64,000 nt of DNA from positions 1 through 64,000 of the forward strand of contig JAILHF010000056.1 of assembly GCA_024696005.1 (NCBI GenBank), read 5' to 3'. The notes under the pieces were generated by a model. That model did not search any database. It saw only the letters and a list, made by a program, of their open reading frames with translations, and was not told where the DNA came from. Below are positions 2,050-63,628 of the stretch, piece by piece; position 1 is the stretch's first letter; every line of letters begins with the position of its first letter. Source of the stretch: Lachnospiraceae bacterium (GTDB lineage: Bacteria; Bacillota; Clostridia; Lachnospirales; Lachnospiraceae). A program made the position numbers and the translations under genes.

Positions 2050-4035
2050 CTATTTCAGTACGATCCTGATATAAACCCTGTATGCGCCGAAATACATAAG
2101 AACATAGACCAGAAGGATAAACAGGCAAAACAGTACAACGCAAAGCTTCATGAATGCGATATCCGTAAGCATGAACAGTTTCATGATGTCACTCATCATG
2201 CCAAAGCAGGCAGCAACATGACAGAAGGCCATTCCCACAGGCAGGAAGAACAGCAGGCCGTTTTCCGCGAATATGCTTCTTTTGATCTCGGTATCGTACA
2301 TGCCGATCTTTCGCATGATAAGCACATTGGGCGCATCGTCCGTTGCTTCCTCGATCTGTTTGTAATACATGATAAAGACCATGTACATGACAAAGATCAG
2401 GCTGATAAAACAGCCGAGGAACAAAAAGATCGCATTCCTTGCATACCTTGTCCGAAGCTGGGTGGCATTGCTGTCAAAATAGTCAACGGTCGGGATCCGG
2501 GACAGCTTGTCGTACAAAACGGCGTCCAGTTTCACCTTGTCGTCTTTTGTACCGCTCACATAATACTCGCACCAGAAAGACAGTTCTCTGGTAAGGCCCT
2601 TTTCCTTAAGCTTTTCGTGCAGGTCCGTGAGAACCGCGAAATCCTTTACGACGATATGGTTTTCGTATGCATATTTTATGTTATCAACCCCGGCGTACCT
2701 GGCGGTATCAAAGTGATACTTCACCCTGAGTTTCTCCCCGTAAAAGTCTATGAACTCATAATCCTTCCTTTCAAGATCTTCATCCGTTACAAGCAGGATC
2801 TCCCCGTCTTCAAGGGTGTAGTTTTCCTTTTCATTCCTGTTAAAATCCGAAAGAACGCTCACTTCCACCACTTCGGGAAGGTCTTTGCTTTCGATCCCTT
2901 CATCACCGAACACGCCCTTTTCAACATCGAGCAGTGTCTGAAATCCCAGCAAAACGCTTTCCCTGCATTCTTCCACCTCCACTCCCACTTCCGCCGCCGC
3001 TTCGTATACGGCTTCCCTGCACAGCACCCTGTCTTCAAAGCTCCGGCAGTTTACGATCCCGTCCGCTTTAAAGGCTTCGCTTGCCTGCCTTTGCGTGCCG
3101 AGATACAGGGATATGGTCGTGGAAGCTCCGATGATCACGCAGGTAAAAAGGATATTGATCACCGAAAGCGACATGGCATTGTTCTTTGTTCCGGAAATAA
3201 GCTTTGCTATGGTGGAAAAGAAAGTGCTCTTATAGTAGATCGAATCCCGCTTTTTCAAAAACATTTCCAGCATCACAACAGCGCCCGAGATCACAAAGAA
3301 GCTTCCCACAAAGAACACGCCTACGGCAAGCAGGATCATCTCGATGCTTTCTCTGAGATCCACAGCCGTATTGATGTAATAATACGCTCCCCCGATCAGG
3401 ACAAGTCCAAACAGCCCTTTGATCACGTCAATGACTGAGAGTTCCTTTACCGGAGCGGCTTCGCCTTCCTCTTTCAAAAGAGAAACGACTTTGTTTTTCC
3501 TGATCCTTCTCATGTTCGAAAACAGAACAAACAGATCGATGAACAGAAATACAAGCATCGTGATCCATACGGGCGTAAAAGAAAAACCGGCCACATACGT
3601 CTTGCTGCATTTCATGAGTGTAAACAGTCCGTCGTATACAAGCTTTTGAAACACAAATCCTGCCAGGATCCCCAGGATAGAACCTGCCAGGTAAATATAG
3701 AGGCTTTCATAGAACAGGATGCTGTCGATGTTTCTGTACTCCAGGCCCCACGCGGCATAAAGCCCCATTTCGCGGTCCCTTCTTTTTGAAAGGATCCTGT
3801 TTGTATACATCTTAAAGAAAAGCGTGATAAACGCCACAAAAACACAGCCCAGGGACAGCACCATGATAAGGGTCGCATATCCGGGCGCCGCCTTTAATCC
3901 GGGATTGAGGGTCATGTATGTAAAAAGATAGAACGCCGTGATGGTGAATACATCCACCACAAGGTTGGCGATGTACAGATTCCTGTTTTCCACGATGTTT
4001 TTAAATGCGATCTTCGCCCAAAACGATTGTTTCAT
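2050..4035 (-). CDS. BceB-type ABC transporter permease (antimicrobial peptide resistance family)
   Basis: A 661-residue FtsX-type permease. The N-terminus (KIAFKNIVENRNLYIANL) and first membrane segments match BceB/YxdM-like permeases. About ten hydrophobic segments are seen, with a large hydrophilic domain of roughly 200 residues between the middle helices (about 335-545), the place where BceB proteins bind peptide antibiotics. The start overlaps the ATPase stop by 4 bp (ATGA), so the two are translationally coupled. In this family the pair removes cell-wall-active peptides from lipid II-cycle targets and also signals to a BceS-type kinase. No BceRS pair is adjacent here. The ligand is unknown. 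Confidence 0.85.
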   Translation of the reverse strand: MKQSFWAKIAFKNIVENRNLYIANLVVDVFTITAFYLFTYMTLNPGLKAAPGYATLIMVLSLGCVFVAFITLFFKMYTNRILSKRRDREMGLYAAWGLEYRNIDSILFYESLYIYLAGSILGILAGFVFQKLVYDGLFTLMKCSKTYVAGFSFTPVWITMLVFLFIDLFVLFSNMRRIRKNKVVSLLKEEGEAAPVKELSVIDVIKGLFGLVLIGGAYYYINTAVDLRESIEMILLAVGVFFVGSFFVISGAVVMLEMFLKKRDSIYYKSTFFSTIAKLISGTKNNAMSLSVINILFTCVIIGASTTISLYLGTQRQASEAFKADGIVNCRSFEDRVLCREAVYEAAAEVGVEVEECRESVLLGFQTLLDVEKGVFGDEGIESKDLPEVVEVSVLSDFNRNEKENYTLEDGEILLVTDEDLERKDYEFIDFYGEKLRVKYHFDTARYAGVDNIKYAYENHIVVKDFAVLTDLHEKLKEKGLTRELSFWCEYYVSGTKDDKVKLDAVLYDKLSRIPTVDYFDSNATQLRTRYARNAIFLFLGCFISLIFVMYMVFIMYYKQIEEATDDAPNVLIMRKIGMYDTEIKRSIFAENGLLFFLPVGMAFCHVAACFGMMSDIMKLFMLTDIAFMKLCVVLFCLFILLVYVLMYFGAYRVYIRIVLK

Positions 4036-57536: not shown

Positions 57537-60023
57537 TTATTCGTATTTCAGTTCTTCCGCAATGTTCATCTTCTTCAGATACTTTGAAGGTATCAGCGTG
57601 GTCAGAAGGAATACCGCCAGTATGATCGCAAGAAAGATCACGCCATGCGCCGTTCCCATCGCCTCCGTGTTTTCCAGGGACAGATCCCCGTCGGTGATCA
57701 CATCCAGAAGATGTATGAGCACCCTGTAGAGGAAGGGAGAAGCGATCGCCGATACAATGGCAGAAATCCCCATGGAAAACAGGCTTTCAAGGAACAACAG
57801 TCTTTTGAGCTTATGCCTCGGCATCGCAACGGAATAGAGCAGCGCTGTCTCCCTTTTTCGTGTCAGGAATCCGATGGACTGGTTTCCGGCAATGCCGATC
57901 ATCGTAAGGATCACGCTTCCCGCAACGACCAGCCTGAGAACGGCCAGAAGCCCCCCGGAATTCTGCTGCTGCTGCGTATCAAACTCTTCAGCAGTCTTTA
58001 CATCGATCGCTCCGGATTCCGAATTCTTAATGATCAGGTCTTTAACGCTTTCGGGATCCCCGGCATTCAGCAGTACCGTGCTTATCCGGGACATGAACAT
58101 GTGATCATACAGATCACGGTTAAGGATCAGCGAATCAAAACCGTAGATCATGGTATCCTTTGTTTTTAACAGTTCCTTGATCGTAAAGCTCCGTTCGATC
58201 GGGAAATCCGTTTCCGGATCGAAAACCAGCCTGACCTCATCACCGGCCTTCACGCCGACCCTTTTTGCCATGATCTCGGTTATGACGATCTCATCAGGCT
58301 CAAGACCGTACCCGTCCTGCGGAAGTCCGTCAAGCATTGTATGCGGGCTGTCCGCAAATACGGACCAGAGCCTTTTCTTTTCATCTCCCATCGCAGCGGT
58401 GGAAGACGTTTCATACACATAGTCCGCCTCCGTTACTCCTTCCACGGCCGTAAGATACCTGTAATCATGGTCTTCATCGTTTACACGCACCTGCACGATC
58501 AGGTCACAATCATATGTATCCGTAAGATCGCCTGTGAGAGCCTTGCCTATGCCTTCTATGAGAAGAGCAAGCGTCAGGGACGTCACACACAATACCGCAG
58601 TCCCCATGATGATCCTGTTTCTGGAAATGTTTTCCGAGGCAAGCTGTGCGAGCGGGAAGGCCAGCTTCCGAAACACCGTCGTCAACCCCTTTGAGATAAG
58701 ACGGATCAGATAGGGTATGAGGACTGCCAGGGCTACAACTCCGCAGGAGAGCGAAACAGCCAGCGTGAAAAAGTTTTTGACCAGCAGTCCCGATACCAGA
58801 GAGACAACAAGCAATGTGATTCCCGCATAAAGCCTGCCCCATCTGTATTTGAATTCCGTATCCTTGTTGTCAAATATGATATCCCTTATGGGTGTCTTTA
58901 CTGCTTTTGCCAGCTCAAACAAAGGATAGGCACATTCCACGAGGATGGCTCCTGCGAGCACGATCAGATATACATATAACGGAGTCGATCCGAAATACTG
59001 CGCGGGGTCGATCGCTTCACCGGCGCTTGTAGCGCTGACATTTAAAAACGATCCCAGCATCCCCGGTTTGACCGCATTATAGGCCAGAATACCAAAGAAA
59101 GTTCCTGTCACTGCATATATGATGTTCTCGATGAGAAGAAGAAACGTTGTCTTTCCCTGTGTTACCCCCAGGCTTCTCAAGGTCCCTATGACGGACATTC
59201 TTTCGTTTACGATCTTTTCCGCCATGGATGTCGTCACGAATATCACGAGAAGGAAAGAGATCAGAAACAACAGATAAAACATGTTATACAGACTCTGGAT
59301 ATCAGGATCGTCCGCCATTTCGCTGACCACCTGCAACTCGGAACCGGGCGCTTTTTCCCTTATGGCATCGGCAAGCTCCTGTATCCTGCTGTCATCTTCC
59401 ACATCCAGAAACCAGTATCCGTAATCCATCTTTTTTACACATGCAATCCGTCTCAGGGTTTCAGATGATACGATCACAAAATCATTGTTGAGGACCGCAT
59501 TGTCGACACTTACGACAGCAATGGCTTTGAGAGCGATGTCAACCTCATCCCTCGTTTCGAAATGCAGGATTTCTCCGACAGCTTTCCCGTATTTTTCGGC
59601 ATAGCTCCTGCTCATGATCACCGATTCATCATCAAGCTCATACTTGTCCGGAAGAATGCACATTTCATGTGCAACCGTCAGATCGGATATCGCAGCCACC
59701 TGGATCGGTTTCTCAAAGGAATAGGAATAACCGGAATCGTCTCTTTCATATTCATACTCCGTTATCGAATTGATCCCCAGTTTTTTTACCGGAGTTATCG
59801 CATTAACCGCGTCTATCTCATCCTCTGTAACATCATAGGCAATGATATCCATCTTCCCGATCATGTCCAGCATGTAGCCCTTCATGAGGTCATGTATGTT
59901 GTTTTTCATGTCCACAGCCAGCAGAGCCGTCATGGAAGCAAAACTGATACAGAACACAAGCAGCAGGAGCCTGAATGGCTTTGTAAATATGTTTTTCAGT
60001 GAATGTTTTATCATCAGTCCCAT
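57537..60023 (-). CDS. FtsX-type ABC exporter permease
   Basis: 828 residues with the two-domain FtsX layout: helix near 18-35, an extracellular domain (about 40-245), FtsX helices (about 250-400), more helices near 405-470 and a second extracellular domain (about 510-690). The last three helices are near 700-815. The motif MAEKIVNERMSVIGTLRSLGVTQGKTTFLL is the typical cytoplasmic loop. It starts 13 bp after the M13 peptidase stop with GGAGGGGAGAG. It lacks the long coiled coils of the other two permeases in this window. Confidence 0.88.
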   Translation of the reverse strand: MGLMIKHSLKNIFTKPFRLLLLVFCISFASMTALLAVDMKNNIHDLMKGYMLDMIGKMDIIAYDVTEDEIDAVNAITPVKKLGINSITEYEYERDDSGYSYSFEKPIQVAAISDLTVAHEMCILPDKYELDDESVIMSRSYAEKYGKAVGEILHFETRDEVDIALKAIAVVSVDNAVLNNDFVIVSSETLRRIACVKKMDYGYWFLDVEDDSRIQELADAIREKAPGSELQVVSEMADDPDIQSLYNMFYLLFLISFLLVIFVTTSMAEKIVNERMSVIGTLRSLGVTQGKTTFLLLIENIIYAVTGTFFGILAYNAVKPGMLGSFLNVSATSAGEAIDPAQYFGSTPLYVYLIVLAGAILVECAYPLFELAKAVKTPIRDIIFDNKDTEFKYRWGRLYAGITLLVVSLVSGLLVKNFFTLAVSLSCGVVALAVLIPYLIRLISKGLTTVFRKLAFPLAQLASENISRNRIIMGTAVLCVTSLTLALLIEGIGKALTGDLTDTYDCDLIVQVRVNDEDHDYRYLTAVEGVTEADYVYETSSTAAMGDEKKRLWSVFADSPHTMLDGLPQDGYGLEPDEIVITEIMAKRVGVKAGDEVRLVFDPETDFPIERSFTIKELLKTKDTMIYGFDSLILNRDLYDHMFMSRISTVLLNAGDPESVKDLIIKNSESGAIDVKTAEEFDTQQQQNSGGLLAVLRLVVAGSVILTMIGIAGNQSIGFLTRKRETALLYSVAMPRHKLKRLLFLESLFSMGISAIVSAIASPFLYRVLIHLLDVITDGDLSLENTEAMGTAHGVIFLAIILAVFLLTTLIPSKYLKKMNIAEELKYE

Positions 60024-60036
60024 TTTCTCTCCCCTC

Positions 60037-62058
60037 CTACCATCTCTTTATCCTGTCTTCCGGTGCCACATACAGTGCGTCACCTTCTTTTACGCCGTAT
60101 ATCTCGTAATAGGGATCAAACAGGGGAACTACGGCATTTACCCTTGCCACGGCCGGGCTGTGGACATCCGAGTAAAGCCGGGTCAATACATCATCCTTCG
60201 GAGATATTTCCGCCCAGATCCTGGCGTAGTTTTCAAACAGTTCCTTTTTCTGAGCATTCGTATCCGCAAGACGCAGCACGCAGTCCACTCCGCTGATATC
60301 AGCCAGATTTTCACCCAGTGTCAGTTCCCCGTCCACAGGATGTATGTCGAGTATTTTCTGCTTCGAATAGTATTCCTCTATGTGCTGTGCCATCTCATCA
60401 AATGCCTTCCTGTCCTCCCCGGGGATCCATTCCGGATCATAATTCCCGTTCATGTCAAACAGCATTCCGTGGTCATCAAACGCATGTGATATCTCATGTC
60501 CGACCACTGCACCTATGCCGCCGAGATTCTGATAATAGCTTTGATCGGAGCTGTAAAAAGGCGCGTCCATGATCGCAAGCGTGATGTTGATCGCATTCAT
60601 GTCCGGTGAATAGCAGGCATTTACCGTCTGGGGAGCCATCATCCGGAATCCGTTTCTTTCTACGCCCGAACGCAGCATGTCGATCTGTTCTTCGTATTTT
60701 TTCAGATTCAGCCTGTATCTGGTCTCATATACGGAGTTTCCGATCAGCTCCGCATCTTTCGGATCTGTGGCATGCGGTTCATCCGCGCCGATAAAATAAG
60801 CCATGTTATCCAGCTTTTGCCGGATCGCACTTTTTCCTTTTTCACTGAGCCAGCTGCAGTCTTTTATCATCTCTTTATACTCTTCGACTATGGCTTTTGT
60901 CATGTCCGTTACTTCCTCAACCGCCTTGCTGTCATACCAGCGTTTTACATATTCCTCACCGAGCTCCCGGGGCAAAGCGTTTTTCACCGCTTCTTTTGCA
61001 TACTTGTCATTGGAGTAAAGAACCGGTGTACCTCCGTACTCTTCCGAAAGATACTCCGATATACCCTCCCTGTAGCAAACAAGCGCGATGTCCTGCCATT
61101 CCTTCAGGTGCTCATCGGTCAGAAGAGCATCTATGGCAGCGATCTGTCCCTCATCCCAGAGATAGAACCCTTTTGTCAGTCTGCTTTCCATCCCCAAGGA
61201 TAAAAGCATCCCGTCCGCACCCACATTGGGACAGAGTGCATCAAACTCTTCATTGGTTTTATACTTTGCAGTCTGCAGGGCTGTGGTCCAGTCCTCATCG
61301 ATACTGTCAACCAGTTCAAGATCCGTGGCAAGAGCAATGTCTATGATCATCTTTACATCGGCCACGCTTCTTTCCTTTGCTTCCTCGCCGTCCATCCCAA
61401 AGTCCATGAGCATATTCCGCATCTGTACCGCAGCTGCCTGTCCCATCTGCCCGCCCGTGCAGATCTGCTCGAGCGAACCGCCTATCGGTGAACAAAACGG
61501 GCGAAGGGAAATGCTTCCCGACGCGGAATCCTTCATATCCGTATCGATGTCAATACCGAAGATCGGATTGACACCCCAGCCCGAAAACAGTTTTCCGCTG
61601 ACCCTGAGAAACTCATCCATCGTAGAAGTGTTGTATATCTCATCAACCGTTGCCTGCATGCTTTTGATATCATCGTCATTCATGAGGCTGCCGCCGGTAG
61701 ATGCTTCCAGCGCCTGTTGATAGACATCACAGATCAGCTGCTCGTTACTGCCGGGCGCATAGGAATCCCTGTTTCCCTTCACGATGTCTTCTATGATCTC
61801 ATCCAACCTGTCATCGACTTTTTCGGTCAGCCCGACAAAAGATCCGTATCTGCCCTTGTACTTATCAAGATCAGCCTCAAGAAGTTCTTTTGCATTTACA
61901 TATCCGTTAAAATCATCTCCCGGCCTTATGCTGTCCGGATCGAAAGGTTCTTCCTCCGCGGGTTCGGGAGCAGCCGCCGGCGGCTCGACGATCGCGGCAC
62001 CGCAACCGGGTATCAGCAGCAGGGAAAGCAGCAGCACTGCAATGCTCTTTTTCTTCAT
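60037..62058 (-). CDS. M13-family (neprilysin-type) metallopeptidase lipoprotein
   Basis: 673 residues from an ATG at 62058 with AAAGGAGG upstream. A signal peptide with the lipobox LIPGC anchors it to the membrane. VVGHEISHAFDDHG contains the zinc motif HExxH, and LGENLADISGVDCVL holds the third zinc ligand Glu. The substrate-binding N-A-x-Y/F-type motif is present as VNACYSPDMNAI. It cleaves short peptides outside the cell. Its position as first gene before an FtsX-type ABC pair and a LytTR/GHKL system suggests a role in peptide turnover or peptide sensing. Confidence 0.93.
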   Translation of the reverse strand: MKKKSIAVLLLSLLLIPGCGAAIVEPPAAAPEPAEEEPFDPDSIRPGDDFNGYVNAKELLEADLDKYKGRYGSFVGLTEKVDDRLDEIIEDIVKGNRDSYAPGSNEQLICDVYQQALEASTGGSLMNDDDIKSMQATVDEIYNTSTMDEFLRVSGKLFSGWGVNPIFGIDIDTDMKDSASGSISLRPFCSPIGGSLEQICTGGQMGQAAAVQMRNMLMDFGMDGEEAKERSVADVKMIIDIALATDLELVDSIDEDWTTALQTAKYKTNEEFDALCPNVGADGMLLSLGMESRLTKGFYLWDEGQIAAIDALLTDEHLKEWQDIALVCYREGISEYLSEEYGGTPVLYSNDKYAKEAVKNALPRELGEEYVKRWYDSKAVEEVTDMTKAIVEEYKEMIKDCSWLSEKGKSAIRQKLDNMAYFIGADEPHATDPKDAELIGNSVYETRYRLNLKKYEEQIDMLRSGVERNGFRMMAPQTVNACYSPDMNAINITLAIMDAPFYSSDQSYYQNLGGIGAVVGHEISHAFDDHGMLFDMNGNYDPEWIPGEDRKAFDEMAQHIEEYYSKQKILDIHPVDGELTLGENLADISGVDCVLRLADTNAQKKELFENYARIWAEISPKDDVLTRLYSDVHSPAVARVNAVVPLFDPYYEIYGVKEGDALYVAPEDRIKRW

Positions 62059-62088
62059 AAACGCACTTCCTCCTTTATCACTATGGCG

Positions 62089-62094
62089 ATTATA
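62089..62094 (-). promoter_or_regulatory. -10 element of the M13 peptidase gene
   Basis: Perfect TATAAT on the minus strand, 31 bp before the start codon. The best -35 candidate, TTGATC, is only 15 bp away. Confidence 0.45.
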
Positions 62095-62154
62095 GCGCAC
62101 GAAACGGAAGATCAACGGAAATGTGGTGAACGGTTTTGGTTTTGTGGTGAAATG

Positions 62155-62180
62155 AAAAACTGCCGGTCGAAAGCCGGCAG
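62155..62180 (-). terminator. Terminator of the MntP-ZIP fusion gene
   Basis: CTGCCGG and CCGGCAG pair around a 6-nt loop, followed on the minus strand by five T's. It lies 25 bp past the stop codon of the transporter gene. Confidence 0.85.
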
Positions 62181-62204
62181 CAGGAAATGTCATATATCGA
62201 ATGA

Positions 62205-63566
62205 TCACATGAAGATCAGCAGCATGACGATCGCGAATCCGATCACAAAGGCAAAGGCTCCCTTGTCGTTATCCTTCTTCGAGCCAAGCTGCGGGATCTC
62301 CTCCACCGTGGCATAGATCAATGCGCCGCCGGCCAGCGCCATGATATAAGGCAGTGCAGCGGGAAAGAGCAGGGACACAATGACAGTGATGATGCCAAGC
62401 AGCGGGATGGGCACGCCCGAGATCACGCCCATGAAGAAGGCCTTTCCGGTATTCGTTCCCTTGTCGCGTATCGGCAGGGAAACAAAGAGTGCTTCCGGGA
62501 TGTTCTGGACCGCGATGGCGATCGCAAGGACCAGTGCCGTGGAAGCCTTGATCCAATCCGTTTCCAGAAAATGGCCGGCATAGATCGCTCCCAGGGCGAT
62601 GCCTTCCGGCACATGATGGACCACTTCCGAGAGCATCACCTTCATGTCGGGACCCAGTTTGCTCTTCGGTCCCTCGGTGATGTCTGCAAATGCGTGAGTG
62701 TGCGGGACCAGACTGTCCACGAGGAACTGGAACAGAACGCCGCCGCAAAAGCAGAGGACAAGCGGGATGATCCCTTTCTCCGTCCGGGCTTTCAATCCCA
62801 GGACCGCCGGCTCGATCATGCCCCAGACCGCGATCGATATCATGATCCCCGAAGTCACGCCGATCAGTATGCTCCGCACGTCATCCGAGAGCCTGCGGCT
62901 TGCATACACGACCGCAGCACCCAGCACGGTACCGGCCAGCGGGATCAGCATTCCGAAGATTGTTTCGCTGTCCGAAAGTGCCTGCGAGCGGTCCAGATGT
63001 GTGATCAGCGAGCGGAAGCCGATGAAGATCAGGATCGTTCCGCCCATGATCTCGGAACCGGATTTATAGCGCGTGCCGAAGATATGCCCGATCTTAACGC
63101 CGATCATCGAGATGATGCAGGTAATGACCGCGATCACGACGACCGCAAACAGCACATTCGGGAGCCCTTCTGCCGGAAAGACTTTTACCGGGACAGCCAC
63201 AAAGGTGATGCCGACTGCCAGGGCGTCGATGCTGGTGGCCACCGCCATCATGAACATCGTTTTCACGTCAAACTCCGGCTTCACTTCTTCCGGAGGCGAG
63301 AATGCTTCCTTTACCATGTTCCCGCCGATCAGGCTGAGCAGCCCGAAAGCGAGCCAGGGGGCGATGATGCTGATCAGATGCTCGAAACGGGAACCGACCA
63401 GATAACCGATGAGCGGCATGATGCCCTGAAACGAACCGAACCATATGCCGCAGAGCAGATACTCTTTCGCGCTTATCTTCTTTACAGCCAGCCCCTTGCA
63501 GATCGAAACGGCAAATGCATCCATTGCCAGACCGACCGCCAGGAGCAGCAATTCAAACAGTCCCAT
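62205..63566 (-). CDS. MntP-type manganese exporter fused to a ZIP-family metal transporter
   Basis: 453 residues from an ATG at 63566 with GAGGTGA upstream. Residues 1-190 are a complete MntP (DUF204): six helices with the Asp residues GLAMDAF (Asp16) and TSIDALAVG (Asp114). Residues about 203-453 are a complete ZIP domain with HHVPEG (317-322) and QNIPEA (354-359), the two metal-site helices. The second motif has Gln and Ala where ZupT-like proteins have His and Gly. MntP exports Mn(II), whereas ZIP proteins usually import Zn, Fe or Mn, so joining both in one chain is unusual. There is no frame break and no yybP-ykoY element. Confidence 0.9.
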   Translation of the reverse strand: MGLFELLLLAVGLAMDAFAVSICKGLAVKKISAKEYLLCGIWFGSFQGIMPLIGYLVGSRFEHLISIIAPWLAFGLLSLIGGNMVKEAFSPPEEVKPEFDVKTMFMMAVATSIDALAVGITFVAVPVKVFPAEGLPNVLFAVVVIAVITCIISMIGVKIGHIFGTRYKSGSEIMGGTILIFIGFRSLITHLDRSQALSDSETIFGMLIPLAGTVLGAAVVYASRRLSDDVRSILIGVTSGIMISIAVWGMIEPAVLGLKARTEKGIIPLVLCFCGGVLFQFLVDSLVPHTHAFADITEGPKSKLGPDMKVMLSEVVHHVPEGIALGAIYAGHFLETDWIKASTALVLAIAIAVQNIPEALFVSLPIRDKGTNTGKAFFMGVISGVPIPLLGIITVIVSLLFPAALPYIMALAGGALIYATVEEIPQLGSKKDNDKGAFAFVIGFAIVMLLIFM

Positions 63567-63599: not shown

Positions 63600-63628
63600 A
63601 TTTTATAGGATTTCTCCCTTCTTTTCAA
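63600..63628 (-). promoter_or_regulatory. Promoter of the MntP-ZIP fusion gene
   Basis: Minus strand: TTGAAA, 17 bp, TAAAAT, 34 bp upstream of the ATG. The gap to the next gene (63567-63666) is too short for a manganese riboswitch. Confidence 0.65.

Follow-up and report, generated by a model that had tools for sequence, protein, structure and literature searches.

A single-frame fusion of an MntP manganese exporter and an altered ZIP-family protein in Lachnospiraceae

The fusion gene and its protein

The window, meaning the whole 64-kb stretch of DNA analysed, carries on its minus strand a gene of 453 codons plus stop (62205..63566) in which an MntP half and a ZIP half share one frame. Translation of this interval yielded 453 residues with the sole stop at the end. 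The open frame begins two codons before 63566 with GTG; relatives start at the position matching 63566, most of them with ATG and some with GTG or TTG. The MntP half (residues 1-190; 62997..63566, minus) has six TM helices by hydropathy. It is followed by a linker (residues 191-203; 62958..62996, minus), predicted to be extracellular, and by the ZIP half (residues 204-453; 62208..62957, minus), to which eight TM helices were assigned by hydropathy and alignment with BbZIP.

In Pfam searches, Mntp (PF02659) matched residues 31-185 at 137.7 bits (cut-off 24.4), and the best stretch for Zip (PF02535) was residues 311-450 at 43.7 bits (cut-off 35.1), a modest score above the cut-off. Scores with two NCBIfam models stayed under the cut-offs: 84.6 for the MntP equivalog (cut-off 214) and 84.3 for ZupT (cut-off 252). 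BbZIP chains were the only solved structures matched by sequence; BbZIP was aligned with residues 183-450 by phmmer (E 7e-18) and with residues 178-451 when a profile was used. As the phmmer alignment spans residues 183-450, the whole ZIP core is present and not just its C-terminal part. The preliminary description of this gene, which had called a full MntP and a full ZIP domain in a single frame, is thus confirmed by the one open frame, by the profile searches of both halves and by the aligned BbZIP core, and the residues and motifs it had listed (Asp16, Asp114, HHVPEG, QNIPEA, Gln354 and Ala359) are in the translation where it had placed them. An assembly error or a stop between the halves, or a poor ZIP score, had been named as grounds for rejecting the fusion; the frame passes from one half into the other without a stop or break, and the ZIP score exceeds the Pfam cut-off. 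Assembly error or frame artefact was ruled out by the recovery of 71 distinct uninterrupted fusions, the window's included. Within the window's genome the fusion is the sole MntP match and the sole complete ZIP match; a ZIP fragment was found at a contig edge.

Sequence searches located a terminator-like hairpin whose first base lies 24 bases past the gene end (62159..62181, minus) and, upstream of the gene, a promoter-like site, TTGAAA-17-TAAAAT (63600..63628, minus). The stretch held four terminator-like sites against 2.1 expected by shuffling and two promoter-like sites against 1.2 expected, and because sites of both kinds are expected by chance these two features are weak evidence. The promoter-like site sits where other fusions have the riboswitch-like leader described below. 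Downstream of the fusion (57540-62208, minus) are genes for an M13-family peptidase (PF01431/PF05649) and an FtsX-type permease; the latter has an ABC ATPase alongside, identified by eye, and is only weakly similar to the riboswitch-linked permease noted below.

Asp16, Gln47 and Asp114 were each present in 64/64 fusions and 25/25 standalone MntP rows, counts that leave out the contig-cut loci L084 and L086. From the E. coli literature we take the Asp16/Asp114 pair of TM1 and TM4 to be essential. Positions kept in fusions but not in standalone MntP were mostly hydrophobic, small or in loops, the main exception being Cys39 (64/64 fusions vs 11/25 standalone). By its residues the MntP half is ordinary, and its exporter function is the safest part of the interpretation, with indirect support from the riboswitch-like leaders of relatives described below.

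The last MntP helix and the first ZIP helix are equally far apart in 70 of 71 fusions, the remaining row giving no pattern match. With loop and helix limits placed by hydropathy and by eye, the Lys+Arg sum was 20.4 in 113 predicted inner loop residues vs 5.8 in 78 outer ones; three predicted inner loops are net acidic despite this overall bias. The product is probably one membrane protein of 14 helices with the ZIP half in the usual ZIP orientation. Since the predicted end of MntP and the predicted start of ZIP both lie outside, the fusion would not call for an added helix. In BbZIP dimers the N-termini are inside and the C-termini outside, with nine helices per protomer, according to excerpted text of PMC10256678; the last MntP helix would stand in the sequence where BbZIP has its extra first helix.

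Of 58 close pairs, which are not independent, 36 gave usable dS in both halves; over these the median dN/dS was 0.055 (MntP half) and 0.059 (ZIP half), and mean pairwise identity over 64 fusions was 77% and 69%, respectively. The two halves are under similar purifying selection. A decaying ZIP half was ruled out by the dN/dS of 0.059.

Distribution, origin and upstream leaders

The 70 other fusion proteins in the pool of 71 were 50-89% identical to that of the window. A full fusion without a stop was found in 12 of 60 relatives searched (own genome included) at 50-100% identity, and the genome collection yielded 69 loci, made up of 61 full-length or nearly full-length fusions, five cut by contig ends and three standalone MntP genes. 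Record titles with the fusion named Lachnospiraceae, Butyrivibrio, Eubacterium ruminantium and Lachnobacterium bovis, with a few further records from Ruminococcaceae, Saccharofermentans, Solobacterium and others; many came from rumen or gut, and both isolates and metagenome bins were represented. The survey of fusion frequency proposed in the preliminary description shows the fusion to be rare. In even samples, with own genome counted in each, it was found in 11/397 genomes and 10/334 genera of the family (E limit 1e-75), 3/291 genomes of the class (E limit 1e-30) and 1/398 genomes of the phylum (E limit 1e-60); these counts describe the samples, and fusions outside them or too unlike the query could escape. 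Among plasmids, 149 records matched and none covered 80% of the query in one place. A second MntP-family match was present in one of the 12 fusion-bearing relatives (G002, 35% identity) and a separate ZIP in nine of the 12, the window's genome having the contig-edge ZIP piece. Since fusion genomes mostly lack another MntP and mostly have a separate ZIP, the fusion takes the place of MntP and not of ZIP.

In trees, from which the contig-cut loci L084, L086, L087, L088 and L092 were left out, the fused ZIP halves formed one clade against 30 standalone ZIPs (SH-aLRT 99, with 64 and with 71 fusions), and this clade has a long stem branch. A quick MntP tree placed FUS_L015 beside the standalone genes L016-L018 (SH-aLRT 91), an arrangement that needs two changes; when all fusions were grouped in one clade the likelihood was higher, and that tree was not rejected (p-AU 0.71). 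A single fusion event fits both the MntP and the ZIP trees, but the ZIP half may have been lost in the L016-L018 lineage.

No conserved neighbours of the fusion were found across 66 loci. ABC transporter proteins occurred near 24 of them in scattered places, and other neighbour families at five loci or fewer each, with a copper-type pair near six of the 66. An HMA-domain P-type metal ATPase and a metal-sensitive repressor (PF02583) lie beside the fusion in L077 (3124-7365), L083 (3109-7365), L030, L029, L033 and L053, with the fusion downstream of both genes in L077 and L083 and upstream of both in L029, L033 and L053; the L077 pair was identified by Pfam and those at the other loci by clustering and by eye. 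In L026 (1019-3428) and L101 (genome G022), the gene immediately upstream of the fusion is a standalone ZIP whose site is ordinary. Downstream of the fusion in L024 (2358-6515) are a Fur-family regulator and a ZnuABC-like metal ABC importer, both assigned by eye.

Genomes were searched with Rfam's manganese riboswitch model (yybP-ykoY, RF00080). A set of 17, in which 12 carry the fusion, gave three matches, each just upstream of a fusion. Among 50 fusion genomes, a match was found in 14 at E <= 1 and in 12 at E <= 0.005; for 11 of these 12, coordinates compared by hand put it 11-127 bases before the fusion, in the sense orientation. The two sets share at least two members (G030 is G072, and G025 is G083). 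In neither search did a match reach the gathering score of 45 bits. The best, at 33.2 bits (G068), precedes an ABC transporter gene and is not beside a fusion, the match at L041 scored 32.8 bits, and three weaker matches sit away from fusions.

All three core motifs were found in 23 of 64 upstream regions of fusions, and alignment of these 23 leaders gave a branched fold of 27 pairs, eight of them with compensatory changes. A covariance model (R1) built from the 23 leaders and run on 100 sources returned 36 matches at E <= 1. With it, an aptamer was located upstream of the fusion in 24/66 fusion loci (the model's own 23 members and L061) and just upstream of MntP in 6/15 standalone MntP loci; none was found beside ZIP in 18 standalone ZIP loci. 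Weak matches adjacent to neither gene were returned in L038 (E 0.003) and L127 (E 0.14). By the same model the leader was absent from 42/66 fusion loci, and it was absent from 9/9 later fusion loci. Whole genomes of 40 relatives gave R1 matches before standalone MntP in G005, G009, G036, G038 and G051, of which G009 and G038 are common to this and the 100-source search. The leader is present in L128, a deep fusion branch. Judged by its distribution, it belongs to the MntP lineage and was probably inherited by the fusion.

A permissive search detected both a terminator and a hairpin following the aptamer in 23/23 scored leaders (L078 being left out); for 16 of the 23, the antiterminator pairing scored better than shuffled sequence (p <= 0.06). 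The predicted aptamer-hairpin-terminator arrangement is that of an ON switch. The abstract of PMC9190785 describes the Lactococcus yybP-ykoY riboswitch as a manganese-specific ON switch. At the window, Rfam at gathering gave no manganese riboswitch, the 261-base upstream stretch gave no RF00080 match, and R1 matched neither the window nor the window's whole genome (G000), in which RF00080 also had no match. The core motifs were absent upstream of the window's gene and of its nearest relatives L024-L027 (for L024, within the 68 bases available). As the leader occurs in part of the fusions and not at the window, manganese control is indicated for part of the family only.

The leader model also marked genes of other kinds. 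Manganese-riboswitch-like elements precede an ABC transporter (ATPase and large permease) in L143-L146, L148-L150 and L133, and in L042 (2306-5915), L050 (2052-5658) and L053 (2073-5679) such a leader-bearing ABC operon lies directly before the fusion, accounting for second leader matches; the proteins were identified by Pfam (ABC_tran, FtsX) for the L050 pair and the L143 permease. This operon is possibly a manganese-regulated export system. The model also matched before Na/Ca-exchanger-like genes in L147 (384-1349; PF01699) and, identified by eye, in L152, L153 and L154.

Kept and changed residues of the ZIP half

The comparison set the ZIP halves of 71 fusions against 30 standalone proteins from related genomes and left out the distant L112 ZIP; positions are in BbZIP numbering where so indicated. 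Met99, Asp144, His149, His151, His177, Glu181, Gln207, Glu211 and Glu276 (BbZIP) were present in 71/71 fusions and 30/30 standalone proteins. The M1 metal site (His177, Glu181, Gln/His207, Glu211) is accordingly intact in all fusions; in the numbering of the window protein, the M1 residues together with D284, H289, H291, E422 and E423 are kept in 71/71. His289 to His291 (62694..62702, minus) correspond to BbZIP H149/H151, both being His in 71/71 fusions, and the QNIPE motif, Gln354-Glu358 (62493..62507, minus), supplies the M1 ligands Gln354 and Glu358 as in standalone ZIPs.

Losses and gains are set against this background. Gly249 (62820..62822, minus) occupies the position of BbZIP Ser106 at the outer entrance, where Ser is found in 30/30 standalone ZIPs and 0/71 fusions (G in 62, A in 4, T in 4 and C in 1). 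Asn178 (BbZIP) is present in 30/30 standalone proteins and in none of the 71 fusions, in which it is always His. Ile387 (62406..62408, minus) occupies the position of the metal-centre residue Glu240, kept in 30/30 standalone ZIPs and 6/71 fusions and otherwise replaced by Ile, Val or Thr; Asp208, the third metal-centre residue, is Asn in both groups. In BbZIP numbering again, Gly212 fell from 30/30 to 4/71, Asp305 from 30/30 to 0/71, and an acid (Asp or Glu) at 113 from 30/30 to 20/71. Among the gains, Glu314 and His318 are fusion-specific and lie on TM4 (Glu314 to His318, 62613..62627, minus) around the M1 ligand H317; Glu314 is found in 70/71 fusions against Val in 30/30 standalone ZIPs, and His318 was gained in 71/71. 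Four residues apart on one helix, the two would have the usual spacing of a metal-binding pair. Gln280 is present in 68/71 fusions (Leu in 30/30 standalone), Glu252, at the outer end of TM2 (62811..62813, minus), in 63/71 (1/30 standalone), and His332 in 62/71 (0/30 standalone).

The preliminary description had read Gln354 in place of His, and Ala359 in place of Gly, as signs of a changed metal site. The Gln354 argument fails, Gln being found also in BbZIP (Q207) and in 30/30 standalone ZIPs. Ala359 is a real and fusion-specific change (67/71 vs 0/30), but it is not among the residues listed for the BbZIP metal centre. That the site is changed nonetheless stands, through Asn178, Glu240, Ser106 and Glu314 and not through Gln354.

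The six fusions that keep Glu240 (L014, L015 and L173-L176) have Gln280, Glu314 and His318 and are without Glu252. In a tree of 101 ZIPs, five of them formed the deepest branch with L014 next, and the other 65 fusions, all without Glu240, formed one subclade (SH-aLRT 97). Glu252 is present in 63 of these 65 and in none of the six, a pattern that represents one event and not many, because a single transition accounts for all of it. The tree orders the changes as loss of Ser106 and Asn178 with gain of Gln280, Glu314 and His318 clade-wide (with few exceptions), followed by that of Glu240 in the 65-member subclade, where Glu252 arises. Changes were not concentrated on one side: the outer half of the membrane held 22/47 lost vs 19/43 kept TM positions (Fisher p 0.83). 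Part of the change may therefore be drift on a long branch, and no claim is made of a dismantling limited to the entrance.

The excerpted text of PMC9278863 reports that S106A impairs BbZIP transport, that D144 and E276 are important, and that D305A, H275A, M99A and H177A have little effect. Ser106 being lost in all fusions, the ZIP half may no longer import; and because H177A and M99A are tolerated in BbZIP, the conservation of H177 and M99 is weaker proof of transport. According to PMC9873690, S106 and Q207 are near each other at the outer entrance in an outward-facing model of BbZIP, the position equivalent to S106 takes part in ZIP8 metal selection according to an excerpt of PMC10372143, and H149/H151 appear in that of PMC10256678 as the inner zinc sensor of BbZIP. 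The GufA type is assigned to the ZIP half by its closeness to BbZIP. Judged by profile and M1 it is a ZIP, yet as aligned it falls outside the GufA ZIPs of the ordinary binuclear kind, lacking two of their hallmarks.

Interpretation and comparison with known systems

Metal exporters and importers are normally separate proteins under opposite regulation. The fusion puts members of an exporter family and of one known chiefly for import on one chain, and its clade is a natural experiment on the roles of the ZIP second metal site and outer entrance and on a possible coupling of metal influx with efflux. A literature search, at abstract level and mostly without subscription papers, found no description of an MntP-ZIP fusion.

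The fusion, its conservation, the selection on it, the changed residues and the leaders in relatives are computed results. The topology, and whether the ZIP half is active, with which metal and in which direction, are inferred from them. The proposals of the preliminary description, a bidirectional or exchanging carrier or a ZIP half serving as sensor or oligomerising partner, are each possible on these results. We tentatively favour, at somewhat less than even confidence, a ZIP half that is still a metal pathway working with the MntP exporter, a partnership that would at first have served the response to manganese excess. The N-terminal half would be the lineage's own Mn(II) exporter, to which a single fusion event would have attached a GufA-type ZIP that later became re-tuned. 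Its M1 site, inner metal-release residues and inner histidine sensor have been kept, the second-site and outer-entrance residues of ordinary GufA ZIPs lost, and new ligand-type residues acquired within TM4 (Glu314/His318) and later outside (Glu252 and His332). As M1 is kept and selection is strong, the ZIP half probably binds metal; and as import of manganese through a manganese-induced exporter would be futile, it likeliest moves another metal. Mn(II) would leave through the MntP half, and another divalent metal, zinc or iron, would enter through the ZIP half. A full single-chain metal swap, in which a fixed linker, Glu314/His318 and the inner histidines couple the Mn(II) exporter to a re-tuned ZIP importer, is a possibility we hold with considerable doubt; if true, cells under manganese stress would expel Mn(II) while importing the metal that manganese displaces.

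Close behind the favoured metal pathway comes a ZIP half without transport; facing the cytosol, it would sense metal and gate the MntP half or load it. It is the less probable of the two, though a serious contender. Metal at M1, Glu314/His318 and His289/His291 would alter the exporter through the short linker, whose length is fixed, and the residue pattern agrees in that the outer residues of BbZIP uptake are lost or variable (Ser106 0/71, Asp305 0/71, acid at 113 20/71 vs 30/30) and the inner D144, H149, H151, E275 and E276 are kept in 71/71. So do the excerpted BbZIP reports, in which S106A impairs transport (PMC9278863) and H149/H151 serve as the inner zinc sensor (PMC10256678). However, new conserved residues arose on the outside too (Glu252 in 63/71, His332 in 62/71), D305A had little effect in BbZIP by the excerpt of PMC9278863, and the ZIP changes show no general outer/inner bias. 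If instead the ZIP half were mainly structural, dimerising like BbZIP and stabilising or pairing two MntP units, the changes in TM3, TM7 and TM8 would find a place, as these helices hold 18 of the 47 standalone-conserved TM positions changed in fusions and form the BbZIP dimer interface in the excerpt of PMC10256678; such a role has no need for M1 in 71/71 fusions or for new intramembrane ligand-type residues, and we consider it unlikely.

Still less probable is a manganese homeostat, in which the ZIP half imports scarce manganese, the MntP half exports it when plentiful and the inner histidines choose the direction. According to the excerpted PMC9334652, manganese import in Salmonella and Streptococcus relies in part on ZIP proteins, and the window's lineage, with a promoter-like site only and no riboswitch, may express the gene at low manganese too; the leader of manganese-ON class before the gene in 24/66 loci, however, fits export. 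Finally, the ZIP half might be a passenger without selected function, as the long stem branch of the fused clade would allow and as the standalone L016-L018 beside FUS_L015 in the quick MntP tree would suggest if they had lost the ZIP half. Against this, dN/dS is about 0.06 as in the MntP half, M1 is invariant and the one-clade tree without ZIP loss was not rejected. This last reading is already disfavoured by the selection result, and we regard it as very improbable.

Among known systems, MntP (YebN) is a Mn(II) exporter of the LysE superfamily (PF02659, TC 2.A.107). The N-terminal half of the fusion is alike in its six-helix 3+3 plan, with Asp16 in TM1 and Asp114 in TM4, and in the manganese-riboswitch-like leader found before part of the fusions and part of the standalone relatives; known members have about 200 residues and six helices in the excerpted PMC4608589, whereas the fusion adds a ZIP at the C-terminus. 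Fusion leaders share with yybP-ykoY (RF00080) the conserved core, a terminator and a possible antiterminator pairing (24/66 loci), and differ in scoring below Rfam gathering and in being absent at the window. An unfused counterpart lies at L112 (genome G011, 2079-3516), where separate ZIP and MntP genes adjoin on one strand with matches about 100 bases apart; the order, ZIP then MntP, is the reverse of that in the fusion, and the proteins resemble its halves only distantly (27% and 38%). With the BbZIP/GufA ZIPs (PF02535), the fusion shares the eight-helix core, M1 of His/Glu/Gln/Glu, the inner bowl and the inner histidine pair. It differs from them in the change of Asn178 to His, the loss of Ser106 and Asp305 and mostly of Glu240, the gain of Glu314 and Gln280 and later of Glu252 and His332, and in being joined to an exporter.
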